From positions 1 through 33,290 of IMG/VR virus record IMGVR_UViG_3300033143_003383: a stretch of 33,290 nt of DNA; one strand, given 5' to 3'. Under the pieces are notes generated by a model that saw only the letters and a list, made by a program, of their open reading frames with translations, was not told where the DNA came from and did not search any database. Both the position numbers and the translations under genes were made by a program. Source of the DNA: a virus. Below are positions 3,667-31,480 of this stretch, piece after piece. How positions within the stretch are numbered: position 1 is the stretch's first letter; each line of letters begins with the position of its first letter.

Positions 3667-4337
3667 CCTTTTCGTTTACGCCTATTACGCTCTATTTGGT
3701 ATGCCCGGCTTTTCCTTGTTTTATAACCTGCACTAAGAACATATCCTTCGGGTTGTTCGCCGGGACGACAAACACACCGTTTTTCCGTCACGGGGTCAAT
3801 ATACCATTTCTTTCCAAACTGCGGATTTTTTGAACCCTTTATTGATTCACTGTGGGTTTTGTTCGCTCGCTCGCGCTGTTCCCTTGTATGCCCCACACTA
3901 CCACGCATTAGAGCTGATGTGCAATTCATCTTCTCACTGTCACTTGCACCATTATACCAATTTTTGTATTTTTTAACACGCTCGTCTTGTACTTCTTTAG
4001 TTCTTGCTTTTTCTAATGCGGCTTGTTTTGTCGCCGGGTCGTTGTTGATGTGATTCCATCCACCCCTGCCACCAATGCGGATATTATACGTATCTTTGCG
4101 CACTACGAAGTCTTCATTGACTATTTCACACTCAAGAGAATACATATGTTCGTCATTATCGACAATATGCAATATTTCCTTTTTGAAGTTTTCAACTCCA
4201 TACTTTGCCATAGCAGCTTCCAATATTTTACTAGAACCCATATAGCCATCATTTGAGTCGGCTGTCTGATGCGCACCTACGTAAATTTTATTGTTGACAA
4301 TATTTGTTATTTGATATATAGTATATAAAGTAGTCAT
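3663..4337 (-). CDS. GIY-YIG homing endonuclease (Seg-like, freestanding)
   Basis: One of two genes on the minus strand. The N-terminal nuclease domain shows the GIY-YIG signature in variant form: YTIYQITN (5-12) and NKIYVGAHQT (16-25). It continues with DGYMGSS, KYGVENFKKEIL, the catalytic-Glu segment SLECEIVN, and YNIRIGGRGG. The C-terminal part is basic and contains KNPQFGKKWYID and a PEGYVLSAGYK element like the DNA-binding tails of T4 Seg enzymes. 224 residues. Its stop codon overlaps the convergent acb1-like gene by 4 bases. Its 5' end overlaps the presumed promoter of the tmRNA gene on the other strand. Such enzymes cut intron-less or gene-less alleles and spread their own flanks, so the adjacent tmRNA may travel with it. 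Confidence 0.88.
   Translation of the reverse strand: MTTLYTIYQITNIVNNKIYVGAHQTADSNDGYMGSSKILEAAMAKYGVENFKKEILHIVDNDEHMYSLECEIVNEDFVVRKDTYNIRIGGRGGWNHINNDPATKQAALEKARTKEVQDERVKKYKNWYNGASDSEKMNCTSALMRGSVGHTREQRERANKTHSESIKGSKNPQFGKKWYIDPVTEKRCVCRPGEQPEGYVLSAGYKTRKSRAYQIERNRRKRKG
4294..4322 (+). promoter_or_regulatory. Sigma70-type promoter for the tmRNA
   Basis: TTGACA (4294-4299), a 17-base spacer, and TATAGT (4317-4322). The predicted start near 4329 is just ahead of the permuted tmRNA. It lies inside the 5' end of the antisense homing endonuclease gene. Confidence 0.7.
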
Positions 4338-6872: not shown

Positions 6873-7331
6873 ATGAGTTTGGTACCGCAACTTGGCAAGG
6901 ACTATGTAAAACTACCAGATATATTGGACCAGTTCACCAACGACTTGATGCCCGCCAAGGAACAATACAGTAACGAAGGAAAACTTTTGGAAAATTGTCT
7001 TAGTAAAAATTCTGCACAGATGCATTATTACGACGAACGAAGAATTAGGTTACATTCATTAGTGAAGTTCTTTCGGATGGAGGTTGACCGTGTTCGTGGC
7101 GTATGGTACACAAAGTATAATGAGAACTATTCCCGCACACTATCAATCCAAATGATTAACAAATACATTGATGCCGAACCCGAATACCTTAATGTATATA
7201 AAATATTAATTGAAGTTGAAGAAGTATACGAAGACTATATATCTGTCGTGGATACTTTTAAGCAACGTCACTACGAGTTAACGAATATGTCGAAACTCCG
7301 AATCGCTAATTTGGAATTTTCCGAAATATGA
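6873..7331 (+). CDS. uvsY: UvsY-like recombination mediator
   Basis: T4 UvsY loads the recombinase UvsX onto single strands covered by gp32. This 152-residue helical protein has the size and arrangement of UvsY (137): an N-terminal helical segment, LLENCLSKNSAQMHYYDERRIRL in the position of the T4 YSKWLNKHSSIKKEM region, a YYxxR-like linker with YTKYNENYSRT, and an acidic helical C-terminus. The clearest argument is context: it overlaps the uvsW gene by 4 bases, and uvsY and uvsW are neighbours in T4-like phages. Sequence similarity to T4 UvsY is only weak by eye; a profile comparison would settle it. Confidence 0.6.
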   Translation: MSLVPQLGKDYVKLPDILDQFTNDLMPAKEQYSNEGKLLENCLSKNSAQMHYYDERRIRLHSLVKFFRMEVDRVRGVWYTKYNENYSRTLSIQMINKYIDAEPEYLNVYKILIEVEEVYEDYISVVDTFKQRHYELTNMSKLRIANLEFSEI

Positions 7332-9955: not shown

Positions 9956-10398
9956 TGGCTGGTAGGAGAAGAGTAAAAAAACAAACACTGGCGGAATTCC
10001 GCGCATGGCTTAGTGGTGTGGAAGAATTGCAACCAGAAGCTTGGGCACCGTCTGCCGACCAATGGAAATTAATACGCGAAAAGATTGATGGTATAATTGA
10101 GCCAAAGTCTGCGGTAGATGCATCCGCATTGGCAAAGATGCTTGAAGGCTATATTAAACCTACAAGTAACCCCGCATTTAATGTTATGCCAGTACAAGGA
10201 AACCCACATCAAATGACCGCTGCGCATATTCCACCGCCACCACCACCTGCGGGTGGGGTTCCTGCTGGTCAAGTTATGACGGCGCAAGATAAGCCGCCAG
10301 TGCCAGTAATGCCAGTACAACCGCCAGTAGACCTTAGTGGTCCTGCTACGCCAAATTTGGACACTAGTGATGGAAGTTACGACAGCAGCTTCTCTTAA
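9955..10398 (+). CDS. Hypothetical protein with N-terminal paralogous domain and proline-rich tail
   Basis: 147 residues. N-terminus basic (RRRVKK), then the domain shared with the preceding gene: AEFRAWLSGVEELQPEAW followed by PSADQWKLIREKIDGI (about 14-48). From residue 75 the chain is proline-rich, including a run of six prolines (PPPPPPAGG) and repeated PVMPVQ/PVQPP, so probably disordered. The ATG overlaps the previous stop. The last 29 bases overlap the start of the DnaE-like N-terminal gene. Confidence 0.75.
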   Translation: MAGRRRVKKQTLAEFRAWLSGVEELQPEAWAPSADQWKLIREKIDGIIEPKSAVDASALAKMLEGYIKPTSNPAFNVMPVQGNPHQMTAAHIPPPPPPAGGVPAGQVMTAQDKPPVPVMPVQPPVDLSGPATPNLDTSDGSYDSSFS

Positions 10399-10930
10399 TA
10401 CTGAACTTACTGAAAGGCTTCTTTGGTACGATGGCGATTCGACGGTTAACGCCGATGAACTTTTACATGCTATATTGAATCGTAAAAGTACTAAAGGACT
10501 TTATGTAAGTGAATTAACACCAGACATTGAACAATACAATAGAAGCGTAACGTTAAAGTCGGAAAGGATTGGTATAAAAGAGAACATACGTCCATTATCA
10601 TACGACTGGCGCATACCCGATGAATATAAGAACATCAATATTACAGAATACGTTGTGGCAAAATTAATGGAACAATCCCCAAACGATGATAAATTAGCAC
10701 TTCGTGCGCAACGCGTAGCTGACGAATTGGAATTATATAAAAAGCTTGAATTAATGGATGTGTTACGTACTTTAATTTTTGTTATAAATACCCTTATAGA
10801 AAATAATGTGGTTTGGGGAGTTGGACGCGGAAGCAGCGTTTCTTCTTATGTTTTATACTTGATGGGCGTGCACGACGTGGACAGCTTTAAGTATGGACTA
10901 AATATAGAAGAATTCTTAAGAACCGAATAA
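10370..10930 (+). CDS. DnaE-like (family C) DNA polymerase alpha, N-terminal palm fragment
   Basis: 186 residues from the ATG at 10370, which overlaps the upstream gene. The C-terminal half aligns with the palm entry of bacterial Pol III alpha: the QRVADELELYKKL helix, then VVWGVGRGSSVSSYVLYLMGVHDVD (GRGS loop at 142-145), then KYGLNIEEFLRTE. In DnaE this is followed at once by the PDxDxDF catalytic strand. Here the protein ends at that point, and the continuation (MDIDIDF...) is encoded 9.3 kb downstream at 20197. No PHP domain is present in the N-terminal half, which is unlike DnaE. Alone it lacks all three catalytic Asp residues, so any polymerase function would need the second fragment in trans. 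Confidence 0.8.
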   Translation: MEVTTAASLNTELTERLLWYDGDSTVNADELLHAILNRKSTKGLYVSELTPDIEQYNRSVTLKSERIGIKENIRPLSYDWRIPDEYKNINITEYVVAKLMEQSPNDDKLALRAQRVADELELYKKLELMDVLRTLIFVINTLIENNVVWGVGRGSSVSSYVLYLMGVHDVDSFKYGLNIEEFLRTE

Positions 10931-20191: not shown

Positions 20192-20210
20192 AACGCATGG
20201 ATATAGATAT
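20170..20210. repeat. Perfect 15-bp inverted repeat over promoter and start codon
   Basis: ATATCTATATCCATG (20170-20184) and its exact complement CATGGATATAGATAT (20196-20210), separated by 11 bases. The right arm contains the start codon and first four codons of the DnaE-like C-terminal gene. As DNA it could be an operator; as RNA from upstream read-through it would bury the start codon. Confidence 0.9.
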
Positions 20211-20775
20211 CGACTTCAAAACAAACTTCGACCCCTTAGATTACTTTAAAGATGCTGTGCGCGCTTCGCGCGTGGAGAAGGGTGAATTGCGTAAGCATCC
20301 CGCTGGCGCATATCTACAATCAATTCCGAAAGACCCAATAACCGAATTAGCCGCAATACCATTTGAGGAAGCGGAAGAATTAGGTTACTTTAAAATAGAC
20401 TTCCTTCACATTGCCCTATTGGACGATTTTGAATCCAAAGAAGAGATACGGGCACTACTTGCTATGGAACCAGACTGGTCTATCTTGGACGAACAGAAAA
20501 ACGTAGAAAAACTATTCCAAATTGGAAGACAGTTTGATGTTGTCCAAATAATTAAACCTAAATCGATAGAAGATTTGTGTGACGTTGTTGCCATATTCCG
20601 CCCCGGTAAAAAACATTTACTGCAACATTACAAAGCCAACAAGGAATTTATCCGTAAAGAACTTTTCAGAAAACCCGAAGACCACGACAAGTATTACTTT
20701 AAGAAATCACACGCGACCGCTTACGCGATGAATATCGTGTTACAAATGCATTTAATTAAAGCAGGAATATTATAA
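20197..20775 (+). CDS. DnaE-like (family C) DNA polymerase alpha, C-terminal palm fragment
   Basis: 192 residues that begin exactly at the catalytic strand of Pol III alpha. MDIDIDF matches PDFDVDF, with D2 and D4 at the positions of E. coli D401 and D403. KHPAG (33-37) follows, then LGYFKIDFL with D68 at the position of D555, then QFDVVQII (GVFQ region), IEDLCDVVAIFRPG (DLxAxxAxxRPG), and FKKSHATAYAMNIVLQMHLIKAG (FNKSHAAAYAL...LKA). All three catalytic Asp are kept, but the fingers and thumb are much shortened, and the GRGS part is in the other gene (10370-10930). The ATG at 20197 is required to keep the Asp residues. It may be active as a complex, or a regulatory relic. It is flanked by structural genes. 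Confidence 0.82.
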   Translation: MDIDIDFKTNFDPLDYFKDAVRASRVEKGELRKHPAGAYLQSIPKDPITELAAIPFEEAEELGYFKIDFLHIALLDDFESKEEIRALLAMEPDWSILDEQKNVEKLFQIGRQFDVVQIIKPKSIEDLCDVVAIFRPGKKHLLQHYKANKEFIRKELFRKPEDHDKYYFKKSHATAYAMNIVLQMHLIKAGIL

Positions 20776-20792: not shown

Positions 20793-21320
20793 ATGAATAT
20801 TATAAATGAAGTCATGCACGACGAGTCTATTGCGCTATCCGCCGCAGAAAAATTTGTATTAACTAAGTTAATAGCAGCCGAAACCCCACAGAACGCATTC
20901 CAAGAAGTCACTAGGGGTGATAATGTTGTCGCCGCGCGCGATAAGTTAACTAAATTGCAGTTAATGACAACTACAAACGATACTGCTCAAATTACCGAAC
21001 AAGGACAGGAAGTATTACGTAAAGAAGCGCTTATAGATGAATCTGGTCAACTTACAGAAGAAGGACAGATGTACGGCTTCGCACAAACGCCCGAAGATGC
21101 GGCAAAAGCAGACCACGACCTAAAAGGTAAGCCAGAAGCTCCTATGCAACCGACTGCCGAACAACCACCAATGAGTGGGGCTTCGCCTACGGATTCAACC
21201 GGCGCAGCGTCACAGCAATCAGGCGAACCCGACGCGTTCTCGATAGAGTCTTTGGAAATGTTGCAGGGGTTCAATGAAGTTCTTAAAGAATCAAAATTCT
21301 GGAAGAAAATCAAATCATAA
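20793..21320 (+). CDS. Hypothetical protein with winged-helix-like N-terminus
   Basis: 175 residues from 20793; a start at 20814 (MHDESIALSAAEKF) would leave room for a leader after the late-type promoter. Residues about 15-80 (SAAEKFVLTKLIAAETPQNAFQEV... AARDKLTKLQLMTTTND... AQITEQGQEVL) have the helix-helix-wing look of a small winged-helix domain. This is followed by an acidic, Pro/Gln/Ser-rich disordered tail and a C-terminal helix (ESLEMLQGFNEVLKESKFWKKIK). Function unknown; it converges with and overlaps the minus-strand gene by 6 bases. Confidence 0.7.
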   Translation: MNIINEVMHDESIALSAAEKFVLTKLIAAETPQNAFQEVTRGDNVVAARDKLTKLQLMTTTNDTAQITEQGQEVLRKEALIDESGQLTEEGQMYGFAQTPEDAAKADHDLKGKPEAPMQPTAEQPPMSGASPTDSTGAASQQSGEPDAFSIESLEMLQGFNEVLKESKFWKKIKS

Positions 21321-21770
21321 TTTAACTATTTTGTTATGAATTTCAATATTTGGTGGTAATGGCTTCTTCCTACGGCGTTTAATACTTTTAACTTCCGACA
21401 TTTCGAATTTAGGTAACGGTCCGATTATCCGTGTCACAAACCCAATAGCAAATGACTTATAGATAGATTTTACACTTTCTGCCACGCCCCTTTTGGAAAA
21501 TTCAAACGATATGGGATATCTATCTTTAGAATCCCTGTACCATTCAGCCGCCACCTTAATTACAAATTCTTCGTTGACGGATGTTGGTCCACACAAATCA
21601 AGTACGTATGCCTTAATCATTTTATCTGTGGCGTTGTCTATTATCCCTAATAGGTGTTTATCCCTATATTCAATTAACGTAATAAACGGGTATCCTTTAT
21701 AATCCGCAGGATGCGCCTCTACAATAAGGGGCAATGGGTTTCCACGAATGCGTTTTTTGGCTGTTGTCAT
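21315..21770 (-). CDS. Hypothetical basic protein, minus strand
   Basis: 151 residues, function not recognised. N-terminus TTAKKRIRGNPLPLIVEAHPADYKGYPF, a central part with LLGIIDNATDKMIKAYVLDLCGP and EFVIKVAAEWY, then PISFEFSKRGVAESVKSIYKSFAIGFVTRIIGP. The basic C-terminus KSIKRRRKK could bind nucleic acid. No cysteine cluster or membrane segment. A late-type promoter in the divergent intergenic region drives it away from the next gene, so it is probably a late, perhaps structural, protein. Confidence 0.75.
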   Translation of the reverse strand: MTTAKKRIRGNPLPLIVEAHPADYKGYPFITLIEYRDKHLLGIIDNATDKMIKAYVLDLCGPTSVNEEFVIKVAAEWYRDSKDRYPISFEFSKRGVAESVKSIYKSFAIGFVTRIIGPLPKFEMSEVKSIKRRRKKPLPPNIEIHNKIVKL

Positions 21771-23048: not shown

Positions 23049-23302
23049 GCATTGTAAGAGAAGCATTAATAGAAGAAATAAATGAGCTGTCCGACCTTAG
23101 CCAAGATTATTATAACATAATTCAAACAGCAAAAACTGCGATTAAAAAACGCACTTATCGTAAGAAATTGTCAACACACAATAATAAATTGGCTGATTTG
23201 CTGATTTCGCTTGACAAACTAGACAAATCCAAATATAATTCCCAAGATACTAACTATGGGGATGAAGAGAATGCCAGCAACATCACAACTGAGCAAAATT
23301 AA
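23045..23302 (+). CDS. Small coiled-coil hypothetical protein
   Basis: 85 residues, predicted nearly all helical (EALIEEINELSDLSQDYYNII, KLADLLISLDKLDK) with a basic centre (KKRTYRKK) and an acidic, Asn-rich tail. Not recognised. ATGA-type overlap with the previous gene and a 47-base overlap with the nucleotidyltransferase gene. Confidence 0.6.
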   Translation: MSIVREALIEEINELSDLSQDYYNIIQTAKTAIKKRTYRKKLSTHNNKLADLLISLDKLDKSKYNSQDTNYGDEENASNITTEQN

Positions 23303-26221: not shown

Positions 26222-26251
26222 TTGACATTTCCTATTAGGTTATGGTATACT
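26222..26251 (+). promoter_or_regulatory. Sigma70-type promoter with TTAGGTTA in spacer
   Basis: TTGACA (26222-26227), an 18-base spacer, and TATACT (26246-26251). TTAGGTTA occupies 26235-26242 between them. Drives the AT-hook-like gene at 26288. Confidence 0.8.
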
Positions 26252-26287
26252 ATCACCCTATAAGATTAATATATTGAGGAAATGAAG

Positions 26288-26638
26288 ATGACAGACGAAA
26301 ATTCTACTACCCATTCATATAATGATATGGACTTGGCGTTACCAAAAACTGCGACCAAACCTATCGTTCTGCCGAAGAAACGCGGCAGACCCGGCAACCA
26401 AATTGCTACTGCTTTCAAAGACATACCAGAACATAAGGTGGACTTTGTTAAATATTGCGCTAAGTATGACGTTAAGCCGACTGTACTTCGTCAGGTCAAA
26501 CGCCACGACTCTTGTCCAGAAACTGGTAGGGTGTATGTCCAAAAGGACAAAAACGACAAATCCCCAACATATGGTACCATGCGCATCTGGCGCGACAAAA
26601 CACAAGTGTCGCCATGGCTCGCTCCTAAAGACGATTAA
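26288..26638 (+). CDS. Small AT-hook-like DNA-binding protein
   Basis: 116 residues from the ATG at 26288, which has GAGGAAATGAAG spacing to the ribosome binding site; an ATG at 26282 is too close to it. The segment LPKKRGRPGNQI (about 26-37) is a canonical AT-hook core (RGRP flanked by Lys), followed by FKDIPEHKVDFVKYCAKYDVKPTVLRQVKRHD, which could be a helical DNA-binding unit. The rest is polar (VYVQKDKNDKSPTYGTMRIWRDK). Under a strong promoter with the TTAGGTTA operator-like element. It could be the regulator of that regulon or a host-chromatin-binding takeover protein; both are guesses. Confidence 0.7.
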   Translation: MTDENSTTHSYNDMDLALPKTATKPIVLPKKRGRPGNQIATAFKDIPEHKVDFVKYCAKYDVKPTVLRQVKRHDSCPETGRVYVQKDKNDKSPTYGTMRIWRDKTQVSPWLAPKDD

Positions 26639-26667
26639 CGCATTGAGTTTTATACCTTTTCATAGTT

Positions 26668-26675
26668 GATAAATA
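26668..26675 (+). promoter_or_regulatory. T4-type late promoter (GATAAATA)
   Basis: GATAAATA 30 bases before the Nudix ATG at 26705. The leader also contains ATAGGTTA (26692-26699), one mismatch from the TTAGGTTA element. Confidence 0.6.
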
Positions 26676-26704
26676 TAATTAAATGTTAAGAATAGGTTAA
26701 CGAA

Positions 26705-27121
26705 ATGTCAAAAGAAATAATATACCGCGCGGGTGTAATCCCGTATTACATGGACAATGGCGAAATAAAGATGTTGTTTATGAAACCATCTAAGAAGAAG
26801 TTTGGTGGTTCCGAATTTCAAATAGCAAAGGGTAAGCAAGAGAAGGGTGAGAGCGACGAAGAAACAGCATTCCGCGAAGCGGGAGAAGAGCTTGGGCTGT
26901 TTTCTGGTAACGTAACTAAACGTACAGACTTGGGAACCTTCCTTGGGCGCACGCGCGTATTCCTCGCTAAGATTGAAGACCCTGATAAATTTGGTGACCC
27001 TTGTGATGAAACGGGGGAAGTCAACTGGATGACACCTAATGAGTTCAAAGATAAAGGTAGAAGCATTCACAGACCTGTTGTAAAAGCCGCCGTCAGAAAA
27101 ATTAAAAAACTGGAAAAGTAA
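26705..27121 (+). CDS. Nudix hydrolase
   Basis: 138 residues. Complete Nudix box G-x5-E-x7-R-E-U-x-E-E-x-G-U at 43-65 (G43, E49, R57, E58, E61, E62, G64), which binds the metal and nucleoside diphosphate. The surrounding fold matches: YRAGVIPYYMDNGEIKMLFMK at the start and RVFLAKIEDP after the box, with VNWMTPNEF near the end. T4-like phages carry NudE, which hydrolyses ADP-ribose and Ap3A-type dinucleotides; NAD-linked or RNA-cap substrates are possible here, but the sequence does not show which. Late-type promoter upstream. Confidence 0.93.
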   Translation: MSKEIIYRAGVIPYYMDNGEIKMLFMKPSKKKFGGSEFQIAKGKQEKGESDEETAFREAGEELGLFSGNVTKRTDLGTFLGRTRVFLAKIEDPDKFGDPCDETGEVNWMTPNEFKDKGRSIHRPVVKAAVRKIKKLEK

Positions 27122-27128
27122 TAATTGC

Positions 27129-27136
27129 TATAAATA
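27129..27136 (+). promoter_or_regulatory. T4-type late promoter (TATAAATA)
   Basis: Exact TATAAATA 23 bases before the ATG at 27160, with ATGAGG as a ribosome binding site between them. Confidence 0.65.
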
Positions 27137-27159
27137 CAGTATCATATATGAGGTATGGC

Positions 27160-27393
27160 ATGAAGTTAATTCAGCAATTATTAGAGATGGCAAAGAGCAG
27201 CACAAAGCGGGCGAAGCAGAAAAAGCGTCGCAAATTGAAAAAATCAGAAACTGGTGGGCTAAACGCCGTCGGCAATCCTGTCGCGCATGCTATGCAAACA
27301 TCTGGCGCTGGTGGTCATGGAACCCAAAAAACAAAAGACAAGCGTGGGCGTGCATCCCGCCGTGAAGGCAAGCAACAAACAAGGGATTATTAA
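27160..27393 (+). CDS. Small very basic late protein, possible internal (head) protein
   Basis: 77 residues from 27160 (GAGG lies 7 bases before; the ATG at 27148 has no such site). It opens with MKLIQQLLEMAK, which resembles the short amphipathic capsid-targeting starts of T4 internal proteins (such as MKTYQEFIAEA). A Lys/Arg-rich stretch (KRAKQKKRRKLKK), a Gly/Thr-rich linker and a second basic region (KDKRGRASRREGKQQ) follow. Very high charge suggests DNA or RNA binding. A late promoter supports expression with the virion genes. The targeting-sequence idea is inference from pattern. Confidence 0.6.
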   Translation: MKLIQQLLEMAKSSTKRAKQKKRRKLKKSETGGLNAVGNPVAHAMQTSGAGGHGTQKTKDKRGRASRREGKQQTRDY

Positions 27394-27394
27394 A

Positions 27395-27589
27395 ATGGAA
27401 TTAATGAAAGAAATCAACACATTAGCTAACGACTACACCCCACCTGAACCACAAGTACAGGAAGATATTCGCACCGAAAGAATGTTGAAATCAATGACAC
27501 CGCCTACTAAGGATAAAAGGGAAGACAAACCCAAAGCCTCAAAACCTGCTGGAATATCAATTAAGAACCTTTTCCATTCAAAAAAATAA
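27395..27589 (+). CDS. Small hypothetical protein, Lys/Pro-rich
   Basis: 64 residues from 27395 (MELMKEINTLANDYTPP); an upstream frame extends into the previous gene without support. Polar, with PPEPQVQED and TPPTKDKREDKPK segments and a basic C-terminus ending near FHSKK. It starts one base after the previous stop, in the same transcript. Not recognised. Confidence 0.5.
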   Translation: MELMKEINTLANDYTPPEPQVQEDIRTERMLKSMTPPTKDKREDKPKASKPAGISIKNLFHSKK

Positions 27590-27608
27590 CCTAATTCCCA
27601 ATTAGGTT
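27588..27608. repeat. 9-bp inverted repeat built from the TTAGGTTA element
   Basis: AACCTAATT (27588-27596), CCC, AATTAGGTT (27600-27608). It holds two divergent copies of the promoter-spacer element just upstream of the promoter at 27619. No T-run follows, so it looks like an operator rather than a terminator. Confidence 0.8.
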
Positions 27609-27618
27609 TAAAAAGTAC

Positions 27619-27647
27619 TTGACTTTTAACCTAATTCCTGTTATGAT
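27619..27647 (+). promoter_or_regulatory. Sigma70-type promoter with TAACCTAA in spacer
   Basis: TTGACT (27619-27624), a 17-base spacer, and TATGAT (27642-27647). TAACCTAA lies at 27627-27634. Two more copies form the palindrome 11-32 bases upstream. Drives the SF2 helicase gene. Confidence 0.85.
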
Positions 27648-27680
27648 AGCCGTATTGTAAATCAATGAAGGTTATCAAAC

Positions 27681-28802
27681 ATGTCAACAAACGAAGAAAA
27701 CTACGAAGAATTAATGTTCGGCGCGAAAAAATCGCGCTGGTATCAAATTGCTGCTCTGCATGGTGTGGAAGAAGCACTTGAAAATGCAATCACCCGCATC
27801 TTGGTCGTTCATCCTACGGGCGCAGGTAAAACAATGACGTCTGGTTTAATATTCTCGTCCATGCGCGTGCGCAAGGCATTGAACATTCCAGCTATCCGCA
27901 AACTGCGTTTACTATTCATTACACATAAAGGTCGTCTATTAACACAAGCCGAACGTGTTTACGCCGACGCCGCTAATATTGAGTTTATTCCACAGTCCGC
28001 ATTTAAAGCTATTCCCGCAGATTTAGAATGGGATATTTCTTGTATCGACGAAGCACATCATGAAGCAATGATGACAATTCAGTATCATTTAGATAAGCTT
28101 GGTAACAAACCAATTATAGGTCTGACAGCAACACCAGACCGCGCCGACGGCATGCTTATCAAATTCGAAAGTATCATCGAACCTATTAGCCGCGAAGAAG
28201 CAGTAGCACAAGGCTACCTTGCTAAGACCTATATTAATAGTATCTTAGACGCACCATCAAAATTCAAAATAGATGTTACTAAACGTATCATCAATGAATT
28301 TGGTAGCGAATTTGGACAAACAATGATGTTCTTCCGTACCAAACAAGAGGTCGCCGAAATTAATGACTATCTAATTTCTTTAGGTTATGATTCAGTTGCT
28401 ATATTGAACCAAACCGAAAAGGAATTGGATAGAATACTCGACGACTTTAGTGCAGGCAAACATCAGTTTGTTATTAACTGCAACCGCATCAATGAAGGTG
28501 TTGACGTGGTTGGATGTACTGACATTTACTTAGGTCGGCAATTTGGTTCTTACCCTCAACTCAATCAGGTTATCGGCCGCGCCTCGCGACCAGATTCTAA
28601 GTGTATTGTTTGGGAACTTATTAATCCAATTTCGAAGAACTTAGATACCACAGTTGTTGTAGGTACACCTGAGCGCCATCGCTTAATTAGTAAGCGCGGA
28701 ACAGAATGGCATACACAAAAGTTTAACTACACTTCTACGCAAGGTAATGACCAAATGTGGAACGGTAACGCAAGTGCGCAATCAACTGGTGGAATGATAT
28801 AA
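27681..28802 (+). CDS. SF2 DEAH-box helicase
   Basis: 373 residues, a compact two-domain RecA-like motor. WYQIAAL (Q-motif region, about 20-26), Walker A HPTGAGKT (44-51), FITHKGRLL (motif Ia), DEAH (123-126), LTATPDR (148-154), then in domain 2 MMFFRTKQEV, CNRINEGVDV (motif V) and QVIGRASRPD (296-305, motif VI). No extra N- or C-terminal domain apart from a polar tail. Similar in type to the DEAD/DEAH helicases of restriction and repair systems and of phages, but distinct from the UvsW gene at 7.3 kb. Promoter with TTAGGTTA-type operator upstream; coupled with the next small gene (TAATG). Confidence 0.92.
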   Translation: MSTNEENYEELMFGAKKSRWYQIAALHGVEEALENAITRILVVHPTGAGKTMTSGLIFSSMRVRKALNIPAIRKLRLLFITHKGRLLTQAERVYADAANIEFIPQSAFKAIPADLEWDISCIDEAHHEAMMTIQYHLDKLGNKPIIGLTATPDRADGMLIKFESIIEPISREEAVAQGYLAKTYINSILDAPSKFKIDVTKRIINEFGSEFGQTMMFFRTKQEVAEINDYLISLGYDSVAILNQTEKELDRILDDFSAGKHQFVINCNRINEGVDVVGCTDIYLGRQFGSYPQLNQVIGRASRPDSKCIVWELINPISKNLDTTVVVGTPERHRLISKRGTEWHTQKFNYTSTQGNDQMWNGNASAQSTGGMI

Positions 28803-29098
28803 TGGGTGAACGTGAATTTAACCTGAAGTACAATGAAGCAATTGTTAAGATTGCTATCGGGTTTTATATCTTGGATACAGCTGGTAGTGAATTAGATTTC
28901 ACACCAGTTGTTATTGAAAGTAATAAGTGTCAACTATGTGACATACTAGCTCAAGGTATAACCCTGCCCGCTACGACTATCAGGGAAGACGTTAACCACA
29001 CACGCGCTAACCTATCAGCAAGCTACATAGATACACTACATCGTTCTGGAATAATGAACGATTTGGTTGTTGAAATGCGCACCTTAAAATTAATTTAA
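28802..29098 (+). CDS. Hypothetical protein coupled to the helicase
   Basis: 98 residues, start overlapping the helicase stop. Alpha/beta character: FNLKYNEAIVKIAIGFYILD, then CQLCDILAQGITLPATTI containing a C-x2-C pair, then a helical C-terminus ending in VVEMRTLKLI. Not recognised. Translational coupling suggests a helicase partner or loader, without other evidence. Confidence 0.65.
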   Translation: MGEREFNLKYNEAIVKIAIGFYILDTAGSELDFTPVVIESNKCQLCDILAQGITLPATTIREDVNHTRANLSASYIDTLHRSGIMNDLVVEMRTLKLI

Positions 29099-29101
29099 TA
29101 T

Positions 29102-29109
29102 TTAGGTTA
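29102..29109 (+). promoter_or_regulatory. TTAGGTTA element upstream of a promoter
   Basis: TTAGGTTA, 22 bases (about two helical turns) upstream of the second copy at 29124-29131 inside the following promoter. Confidence 0.7.
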
Positions 29110-29116
29110 CAAACAC

Positions 29117-29145
29117 TTGACAATTAGGTTACAATTTGTTATACT
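29117..29145 (+). promoter_or_regulatory. Sigma70-type promoter with TTAGGTTA in spacer
   Basis: TTGACA (29117-29122), a 17-base spacer with TTAGGTTA at 29124-29131, and TATACT (29140-29145). Drives the gene at 29181. Confidence 0.85.
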
Positions 29146-29180
29146 AGCCACACTACTTAATAAAGCGTCGGGAACAAACA

Positions 29181-30308
29181 ATGATTAAATTCGATATTTC
29201 AAAATTCACGGTTAAAAATGTATACCTTAAACTAATCACAAAATCGTCAGGTGGTACTATGCGTATATTAGATACTGCTAATAGTACGGACGATGAAGAA
29301 GCGTTTATTAATCTTCCAGTACCTGCTCATGTTGTGGATAGTTATAAACAAACTTACATGACAAAATACATTAAGCCTATCTTAACATCAGTGTGTTATT
29401 ACGACGGCATTGTTGTGGCGTTACACCCACACCCAAACGGTAACCTTGGTCAAGAAAAAGTTGAAACGCTTTTCGGTACCAGATACTGGCAATCGGCTAT
29501 TGCCATTAACATAGAAAAAACTCTTATTTCGGCAACAGCCGCCGACCAGTGGTATATCGACGGTTGTGTTATCTATCGGTTCGACAATGAAAAGTCACCG
29601 ACGAATCTTACCAAAGACGGTAAGTTCCAAGCGTTAGAAGTTGTATCGTATCGTTTAACTGACCTCGCGTTCCGTACTATGGATACTTCACAACGCATGT
29701 GTATTGCTTACGTTGCTAATACTGGTCAAAATATTATTTCACCCCCAGTTTGGAGAACCCTTACCACTATTGGTAAAAGAAAAATGGATGCTTCAAGTGA
29801 CGACGACGCTGTTATATTAGGTATGGAAGAACATACCTTCGACAAAATTGACAGGGTAATGGCACCAAATTTAAACTTTGCATTACATGCAAGTAAAGTG
29901 CTTATTGAAAATTTTGGTTACGATGCGATTGAACCACTACGTCTGGATGACTTAATGGTTAGCTTAATGACTGTTAACCTACCCAAAATTGACCAAAGCA
30001 TTAAGAACACACACGAAATTGGTTTGAAGTTCACGCACGCAATGGCATGGTTAATCGGTCTGGGCGCGCGCAAAATGACATTAGAATCTTCTACTGCGCT
30101 TCGTAGCATGCTTCGTTACCTGACTACCCGTGGTATTGTACATAAGCACGCGTTAGCCAAAGATAGTGTATTTCACAAAGGCAAGGACATGGCTTCTGTT
30201 GAATTAATGACAGTAGAAAATATCAAAGAAGTGGCAAAGCAAAAGGAACGCGACCTACTGGATATCGCCCCGCTGGAAACTGCATGGCTTTCACGAAATG
30301 CTGCTTGA
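29181..30308 (+). CDS. Hypothetical protein of 375 residues, early-type promoter
   Basis: Not recognised. Mixed alpha/beta, no membrane segment or classic catalytic motif. Segments that stand out: DEEAFINLPVPAHVVDSY, an ALHPHPNGNLGQEKVETLFGT loop, ALEVVSYRLTDLAFRTMDTSQRM, and a C-terminal helical region with EIGLKFTHAMAWLIGLGARKMTLESSTALRSML. It is driven by its own TTAGGTTA-type promoter and is separate from neighbours, so likely an important early protein. Its stop codon TGA is part of the next promoter's -35 (TTGACA). Confidence 0.75.
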   Translation: MIKFDISKFTVKNVYLKLITKSSGGTMRILDTANSTDDEEAFINLPVPAHVVDSYKQTYMTKYIKPILTSVCYYDGIVVALHPHPNGNLGQEKVETLFGTRYWQSAIAINIEKTLISATAADQWYIDGCVIYRFDNEKSPTNLTKDGKFQALEVVSYRLTDLAFRTMDTSQRMCIAYVANTGQNIISPPVWRTLTTIGKRKMDASSDDDAVILGMEEHTFDKIDRVMAPNLNFALHASKVLIENFGYDAIEPLRLDDLMVSLMTVNLPKIDQSIKNTHEIGLKFTHAMAWLIGLGARKMTLESSTALRSMLRYLTTRGIVHKHALAKDSVFHKGKDMASVELMTVENIKEVAKQKERDLLDIAPLETAWLSRNAA

Positions 30309-30333
30309 CATTTGTAACCTAACGTGTTATAGT
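30305..30333 (+). promoter_or_regulatory. Sigma70-type promoter with TAACCTAA in spacer
   Basis: TTGACA (30305-30310), a 17-base spacer with TAACCTAA at 30315-30322, and TATAGT (30328-30333). Start near 30340. The 72-base leader holds two small hairpins before the ribosome binding site. Confidence 0.85.
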
Positions 30334-30412: not shown

Positions 30413-31480
30413 ATGAAACACGATTTTATAAAAAATGCTAAAGTTGAAGTTGAACAAAGCACCGACGGCAAAGGTCGCAACACCGCAGTCGTAACCATCG
30501 GTAACGACTCTGGTGAAAAATATCAACACACATTCCCACACTCATCGCGCAATTCAAAAGCGTTGGATGTAATGACACCATCACAACTTGCTGAACAGTT
30601 ATCTGGTGGCAGTTTTTTTATGGTAGAAGACACATTGTATGACTACCGTGACGGTAACTATAAAGGTCATATTCAAACTGACGAAACTATCTTACAATTA
30701 AAAGACTTGCTTGGTATGCATCACTATAGCCAAGGTAATGACTTACGCGTACACGAGAACGTTACGTCTGGTCGTGTTAAGCTCGGTCGTAAGTGGTCAG
30801 ACAACCCTATCGACATTAAAGCCTTTAAAGAAGGCGGTGAGTTTCGTTCTGAACTTCACTTCGGTTGGTCACCATTCATGGCAACTATTAACAGCGCGTT
30901 CAAACTTGAACGTTTAATCTGTACTAATGGTATGCGCGGTCTTCGCACTTTCATGAATACAAAAATCCCATTAGTCAATCGTTGGGAAGAACATCTGGAT
31001 ATGGCAAGTATTCAAATCCAAAACAAAGTTGACGGTATCGTTCAACGTCGTTTTCTGGAAATGTCTACTGAACGCGCATCTGTCGCAGAACTTATGGCAT
31101 TAAATAAGCACGCAGAGGAACGTATTCGCCAAGGTCAAGAATACGTGGCGACCAATAACATGCTTCGGAATATTCAAAGCATCGTTAACCCACGCATTCA
31201 CTTAAGCGACGTGTATCAAGCAAATGTATTTGGACAAAACAGTCCAGCTTCGGCACAGTATCCCGGTCACCTGACTACAATGGATGCTTATAACGTCGCT
31301 ACTGAGATTCGTTCACATACGCGTCCAGCACAGAAGTCTACAGAACGAGCGCTGGATATGATTGCCAACGACTTGGTATTCGACCATAAGAATATCATCC
31401 TGCCAGCTTCTGGTAAAGTGTCGCGCAGAACTAGCGCGTTCTCTGACCCCGACGCTGCTTTCTTTGGTCAAATGAGCTAA
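30413..31480 (+). CDS. Hypothetical protein, possibly DUF932-like
   Basis: 355 residues. The central segment (ELHFGWSPFMATINSAFKLERLICTNGMRGLRTF, about 143-176) resembles the fRxVCxNGM-type core of DUF932 phage/plasmid proteins, whose function is unknown; by eye only. N-terminal domain with VEVEQSTDGKGRNTAVVTIGND, then SGGSFFMVEDTLYDYRDGNYKGHI. Helical C-terminal half (MASIQIQNKVDGIVQRRF, ASVAELMALNKHAEERIRQGQEY). Strong TTAGGTTA-type promoter and a structured leader suggest high, regulated expression. Ends in an Asp/Ser/Ala tail. Confidence 0.7.
   Translation: MKHDFIKNAKVEVEQSTDGKGRNTAVVTIGNDSGEKYQHTFPHSSRNSKALDVMTPSQLAEQLSGGSFFMVEDTLYDYRDGNYKGHIQTDETILQLKDLLGMHHYSQGNDLRVHENVTSGRVKLGRKWSDNPIDIKAFKEGGEFRSELHFGWSPFMATINSAFKLERLICTNGMRGLRTFMNTKIPLVNRWEEHLDMASIQIQNKVDGIVQRRFLEMSTERASVAELMALNKHAEERIRQGQEYVATNNMLRNIQSIVNPRIHLSDVYQANVFGQNSPASAQYPGHLTTMDAYNVATEIRSHTRPAQKSTERALDMIANDLVFDHKNIILPASGKVSRRTSAFSDPDAAFFGQMS

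Follow-up and report, generated by a model that had tools for sequence, protein, structure and literature searches.

A short asymmetric word in the core promoters of an uncultured jumbo phage is probably the operator of a multi-promoter regulon

Between 26 and 31.5 kb of a virus record, four strong sigma70 promoters carry the same 8-bp word, TTAGGTTA, between their -35 and -10 elements, which raises the question of what the word does there and what might bind it. The window, by which we mean the whole 33.3-kb stretch analysed, encodes thymidylate synthase, primase, a UvsW-type helicase, a clamp loader, tail fibres and PRPP synthetase, and is part of the genome of an uncultured jumbo phage. The jumbo phages XacN1 and PA5oct are among those with related clamp loaders; the relatives of the window as a whole are uncultured viral contigs of 35–395 kb, referred to here by G numbers. 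The closest, G011, is a 363.5-kb contig (carrying locus L097) that is collinear with the window in reverse, from 238 to 189 kb, with ~70% protein identity for the clamp loader, PRPP synthetase and NUDIX protein. Among 50,697 phage records, a search found nothing directly related, by nucleotide or protein sequence, to the 118-, 375- and 355-aa proteins described below. Two window ORFs separated by ~10 kb (10337–10930 and 20197–20775) match DNA polymerase and flank clamp loader and tail fibre genes; their sequences read as a split polymerase. A lone minus-strand gene for a 151-aa protein (21315–21770, phrog_11637) is present in all relatives except G008, at 42–75% identity.

The four promoters and the genes that they drive are on the plus strand, and each promoter has a TG-extended -10 element. 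P1 (26222–26251, TTGACA-18-TATACT) has the operator word in its spacer at 26235–26242 (plus strand) and drives the gene for a 118-aa protein (26282–26638), a candidate operator-binding protein with an RGRPGN arm and a predicted winged helix (residues 40–105). P2 (27619–27647, TTGACT-17-TATGAT) carries the word on the minus strand at 27627–27634, where it reads TAACCTAA, and drives an SF2 helicase of the ResIII/Helicase_C type (27681–28802) in one operon with a 98-aa protein (28802–29098) to which no function is assigned. P3 (29117–29145, TTGACA-17-TATACT; word at 29124–29131, plus strand) and P4 (30305–30333, TTGACA-17-TATAGT; word at 30315–30322, minus strand, again reading TAACCTAA) drive the genes for a 375-aa protein (29181–30308) and a 355-aa protein (30413–31480), neither assigned to a family and both kept in relatives. 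Auxiliary copies lie upstream of two of the promoters: before P2, a minus-strand TTAGGTTA at 27587–27594 forms an inverted repeat with the operator-like plus-strand TTAGGTTT at 27602–27609, and before P3 a plus-strand copy at 29102–29109 precedes the spacer copy by 22 bp. Immediately ahead of the NUDIX gene, a plus-strand copy with one mismatch, ATAGGTTA (26693–26700), is doubtful.

All four promoters and all three extra copies are thus found where the original prediction had placed them. Two of its gene labels need changing: what it called an SF2 helicase pair is one SF2 helicase followed by the 98-aa protein, and the product of the first gene, which it listed at 26288 and described as AT-hook-like, is better described by an RGR arm and a predicted winged helix. 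A comparison of the 375-aa and 355-aa proteins with each other found no relationship. Assignment of the 355-aa protein to DUF932 was rejected, the likeness being limited to a short RxxC.NG stretch with an hhalign probability of 3.5%. We also rejected the inverted repeat at 27587–27609 as an intrinsic terminator. A terminator there would stop minus-strand transcription, yet no gene on that strand runs into the repeat, and the stem contains just four G-C pairs.

The word occurs 10 times in the window against 1.27 expected from dinucleotide shuffles, and no single shuffle attained the observed count. Six of the 10 copies are intergenic, all at 26–30 kb, in a window of which intergenic DNA makes up 4.0% (p = 8e-7). 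Spacers of the four strong TG-extended promoters account for four copies, so that 4 of the 13 TTGAC-type promoters in the window carry a spacer copy, compared with 0.02 under a Markov null. The strongest enrichment of any k-mer tested in the promoter spacers of the window is that of TAGGTTA (5 of 13, p = 2.8e-9), whose fifth case is the doubtful promoter at 26693. The promoters at 4294, 8811, 12586 and 20162 lack the word, as had been predicted, and so does the one at 23211. The earlier list of sites was correct in what it contained but left out four genic copies, at 7045, 8551, 20380 and 28380; three of these four read as Leu-Gly-Tyr codons, and the four look like coding chance.

By its own terms, the original prediction would be refuted if genes throughout the genome contained the word just as often, and G011 allows this comparison over 363.5 kb. 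The total there is indeed close to chance, with 45 copies against 40 for the reversed word, and coding DNA has chance-like copies; the placement is extreme. TTAGGTTA ranks first among the 2,315 8-mers of G011 promoter spacers, which contain 13 of the 45 genome copies where 0.33 are expected (p = 1e-17), and a Markov null gives 0.18 spacer copies with a maximum of 3. About 30 G011 promoters carry the core, and in a further set the site overlaps the -10 element (ATTAGGTTATAAT). A column profile of 31 promoter-associated G011 sites and 7 window sites gives the consensus AAWTAGGTTAYAA, which is asymmetric and has the core TAGGTTA.

These sites are free in orientation and offset. The two orientations occur 13 and 9 times in G011 promoters, both are used in the window as well, and the G011 sites stand at several distances from -35. 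Downstream of -10, up to +80 of -35, no exact copies were present in 22 G011 promoters. Direct pairs of sites 22 bp apart, about two turns of the helix, occur in both phages (window 29102/29124; G011 299936/299958). The P1 operator lies in the spacer, while that of the counterpart promoter in G011 lies just upstream of -35, and the sites therefore turn over while the association with the promoter stays.

In G011, the genes behind operator promoters include those for a DNA methyltransferase, a T4-type RNA ligase 1, an HNH endonuclease, a Cas3-like HD/helicase protein, a DUF932 protein and many small ORFs, functions typical of host takeover or accessory genes. The Cas3-like protein (L230:5332; G011:145332, minus strand) is a stand-alone protein of 861 aa with HD and helicase domains. 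The cluster encoding the helicase and the 98-, 375- and 355-aa proteins (window 27.6–31.5 kb) is missing from G011 between conserved flanks (L232, G011:189–196 kb); between the 81-aa gene and the PRPP synthetase gene, G011 has kept an operator promoter with other cargo behind it. The first product behind the operator promoter at this position is a 770-aa protein, which looks like phage RIIA on visual inspection and has no Pfam hit.

Related operators are found in more distant relatives, partly at the same genes. TTAGGGT, one base apart from the window word, occurs in promoter spacers of G001, G004 and G009, in part before the same helicase or 375-aa genes. In either orientation, ACCCTA/TTAGGGT is present in the promoter spacers of helicase orthologues at L007, L009 and L011 and of 375-aa orthologues at L001, L004, L009 and L011. 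GGGTAAA and TTAGGGT are the top spacer 7-mers of G004, where about nine promoters share TTAGGGTMAAA. G012 and G013 have only a few ACCCT/TTAGGGT spacers, and the TTAGGKT word does not rank first in contigs G007, G008 and G014. In G003 the operator is a different one: the palindrome TGAACAAAGTTYA directly follows -35, at a fixed place, in about 13 promoters at 350–379 and 1–21 kb. Spacer-located, lineage-specific operators therefore recur in this clade, drifted in the TTAGGGT phages and replaced in G003. A scan of viral contigs for TTGACW-N-TTAGGTTA-N-TATAMT returned at least 119 stretches, mostly as single matches, and is uninformative alone.

The prediction that the word is the operator of a regulator with a regulon is thus strongly supported, by its first rank in G011 spacers and by the variant operators of distant relatives. 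In our preferred reading, AAWTAGGTTAYAA is probably bound by a sequence-specific regulator. This would most likely be a repressor encoded by the phage, which covers the core of host-type sigma70 promoters and silences a probably early gene set as a unit. Because their -35 and -10 elements and 17-bp spacing are near consensus, the operator promoters would be fired immediately by host RNA polymerase. As the regulator accumulates, it would occupy the interval between the two elements, in some promoters joined by a second molecule a short way upstream, and block polymerase binding; the word lies between these elements or immediately beside them, which is where polymerase would be blocked. From the variable offset and either orientation between -35 and -10, we infer repression rather than activation; nor would a core promoter element or a copied cassette be expected to show this freedom of placement. 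The early timing of the genes is suggested by promoter type and gene content, and these two considerations only. The regulator is likely encoded by the phage, since the operator drifts or is swapped between phage lineages and the exact-pattern scan described below found no shared bacterial promoter.

An alternative is that the word is an activator or alternative specificity site, through which a phage factor recruits host RNA polymerase. Its occurrence in the promoters of one gene set and its retention among relatives would fit such a role, and in this respect the word resembles the MotA boxes of T4 middle promoters, where a short phage-specific word likewise marks the host-RNA-polymerase promoters of a gene class. 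MotA boxes, however, are located at about -30 and replace the -35 element, whereas the present promoters have a consensus -35 and the word has no fixed place, varying in orientation and offset and often overlapping the -35/-10 interval. The promoters already have near-consensus elements, 17-bp spacing and a TG extension and therefore need no activator. We consider a site for activation unlikely.

Similarly improbable is a site for a regulator of the host, whether exploited by the phage or acting upon it. Promoters read by host RNA polymerase are where such regulators would naturally act. However, a search of 84,980 bacterial and archaeal genomes for the exact P3-like operator-promoter pattern gave four scattered matches with no gene in common, one of them on a phage-like contig, and the operator differs by phage lineage and is replaced in G003. 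To our knowledge, none of the host boxes for BirA, PurR, ArgR, LexA, NrdR and similar regulators fits the word. The phage-like contig among the four matches, 4.2 kb long and from a gammaproteobacterial bin (L264), has a perfect operator promoter, phage-like small genes and weak similarity to G011, which hints at a gammaproteobacterial host.

The promoters could also be recently duplicated cassettes that inherited the word without function, as near-identical copies do make up other promoter classes of these phages (G001, 234–247 kb). This is very unlikely for the promoters carrying the word, whose flanks, spacer remainders, offsets and orientations all differ, and the same word occurs in unrelated G011 spacers. 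Chance in an AT-rich window, to which the four genic copies and the near-control total in G011 might point, is refuted by the spacer enrichment in an independent genome (p ~1e-17) and can be dismissed.

If a repressor occupies the operator, its best candidate is the 118-aa winged-helix family, an assignment that we regard as possible and put forward tentatively. The protein is conserved in G001, G003, G004, G008, G009 and G011, and its gene stands behind operator-type promoters in the window, G011, G004 (variant TTTAACCCAAAC) and G013 (variant TTACCCT). An operator before the candidate gene is weak evidence, because every regulon gene has one; were the family the binder, its own gene would be repressed. 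Pfam, PHROG and NCBIfam gave no match for the window protein. Its RGR[PK]GN arm is followed by a confidently predicted winged helix (AlphaFold2 pLDDT 84–92, residues 41–90), with the elements H40–46, H55–62, H66–75, E83–88 and E100–105, that is, a helix-turn-helix and then a beta wing. The best structural matches are mostly winged-helix regulators and are weak, with a best Foldseek E of 0.04 and a Z of about 5, values to be expected when a fold is small and widespread. Long homologues of about 175 aa add an N-terminal tri-helical domain and have two predicted DNA-binding domains, where the window protein has one. Recognition helices split by operator type, with VLRQ[VI]KRHD accompanying TTAGGTTA and VLRQS[KR]RFD accompanying TTAGGGT, a pattern that is suggestive only, because the two TTAGGTTA phages are sisters. 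Against the assignment, the family also occurs in G003, which mainly uses a palindromic operator of unrelated sequence, and in G001 and G009, which have fewer copies of the operator.

Among known systems, the closest working parallel is that of mycobacteriophage L5/TipsytheTRex, in which a monomeric repressor with two DNA-binding domains binds asymmetric sites repeated through the genome (PMC9283540, PMC6550527). As in the L5 system, one phage has many asymmetric sites of ~13 bp, related phages have drifted versions, and the 31 promoter-associated AAWTAGGTTAYAA sites in G011 compare with a threshold of at least 20 copies for such systems. The long form of the candidate, at about 175 aa, may also parallel the 183-aa L5 repressor, which has two DNA-binding domains, since two are predicted for it; the candidate in the window has only one winged helix, and no sequence relationship to the L5 protein was detected. 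Unlike the L5 sites, most of which lie in transcribed DNA between genes and point one way, those described here are inside core promoters in either orientation, and the phages are jumbo phages without known lysogeny. Since a single orientation and a location away from promoters are the hallmarks of stoperators, we do not class this as a stoperator system; it is probably better described as an operator regulon that spans many promoters of uncultured jumbo phages. As for lambda CI/Cro, putative repressor sites overlap strong, probably early sigma70 promoters, but lambda operators are few and palindromic, while the window and G011 sites are asymmetric and spread over many promoters; the palindromy has a counterpart in TGAACAAAGTTYA of G003. 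The predicted helix-turn-helix and two-stranded wing of the 118-aa protein are like those of bacterial MarR/ArsR/PurR-type winged helices, from which it differs in its weak fold match and its distinct RGR arm.

Little is known about gene timing in jumbo phages that use host RNA polymerase; a review of the subject covers phage RNA polymerases and sigma factors and does not mention the word 'repressor'. A genome-wide operator that can be read from sequence and drifts by lineage, together with a named candidate binder, makes the timing question testable. Should these operators, specific to each lineage, confer immunity, the coexistence of giant phages in one cell would be predictable from them in part. 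In a bolder and rather doubtful extension, the 118-aa family would form a new class of small phage repressors, combining an RGR minor-groove arm and a winged helix, in some members joined by a second helix-turn-helix, which silence dozens of early promoters through asymmetric spacer operators in presumably virulent jumbo phages; joint drift of recognition helix and operator would then separate immunity groups. Such a class, if real, would be a superinfection-exclusion system outside temperate phages.

Several other promoter classes were observed in the relatives. The TGAACAAAGTTYA promoters of G003 are found at L027, L028, L044 and L045, and a third promoter class, with TAACTTAGTT, is present at 376–379 kb of the same contig. 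In G001, twelve near-identical promoters (TTGTCTTTAAATATAAATGTAGTATAATAGCTTTATTGATT) precede small genes at 234–247 kb (L057–L058) and represent a second promoter class. About 20 closely spaced promoters with an inverted repeat around -10 are found at L246–L247 (G013:55–71 kb) and L068 (G009:147–157 kb), for example GATGGGGC-TATAAT-GGCCCCATC in G013 and GATGGGAG-TATTAT-ACTCCCATC in G009. The repeat arms vary from promoter to promoter, with pairing within promoters of 0.425 compared with at most 0.411 in re-paired controls.
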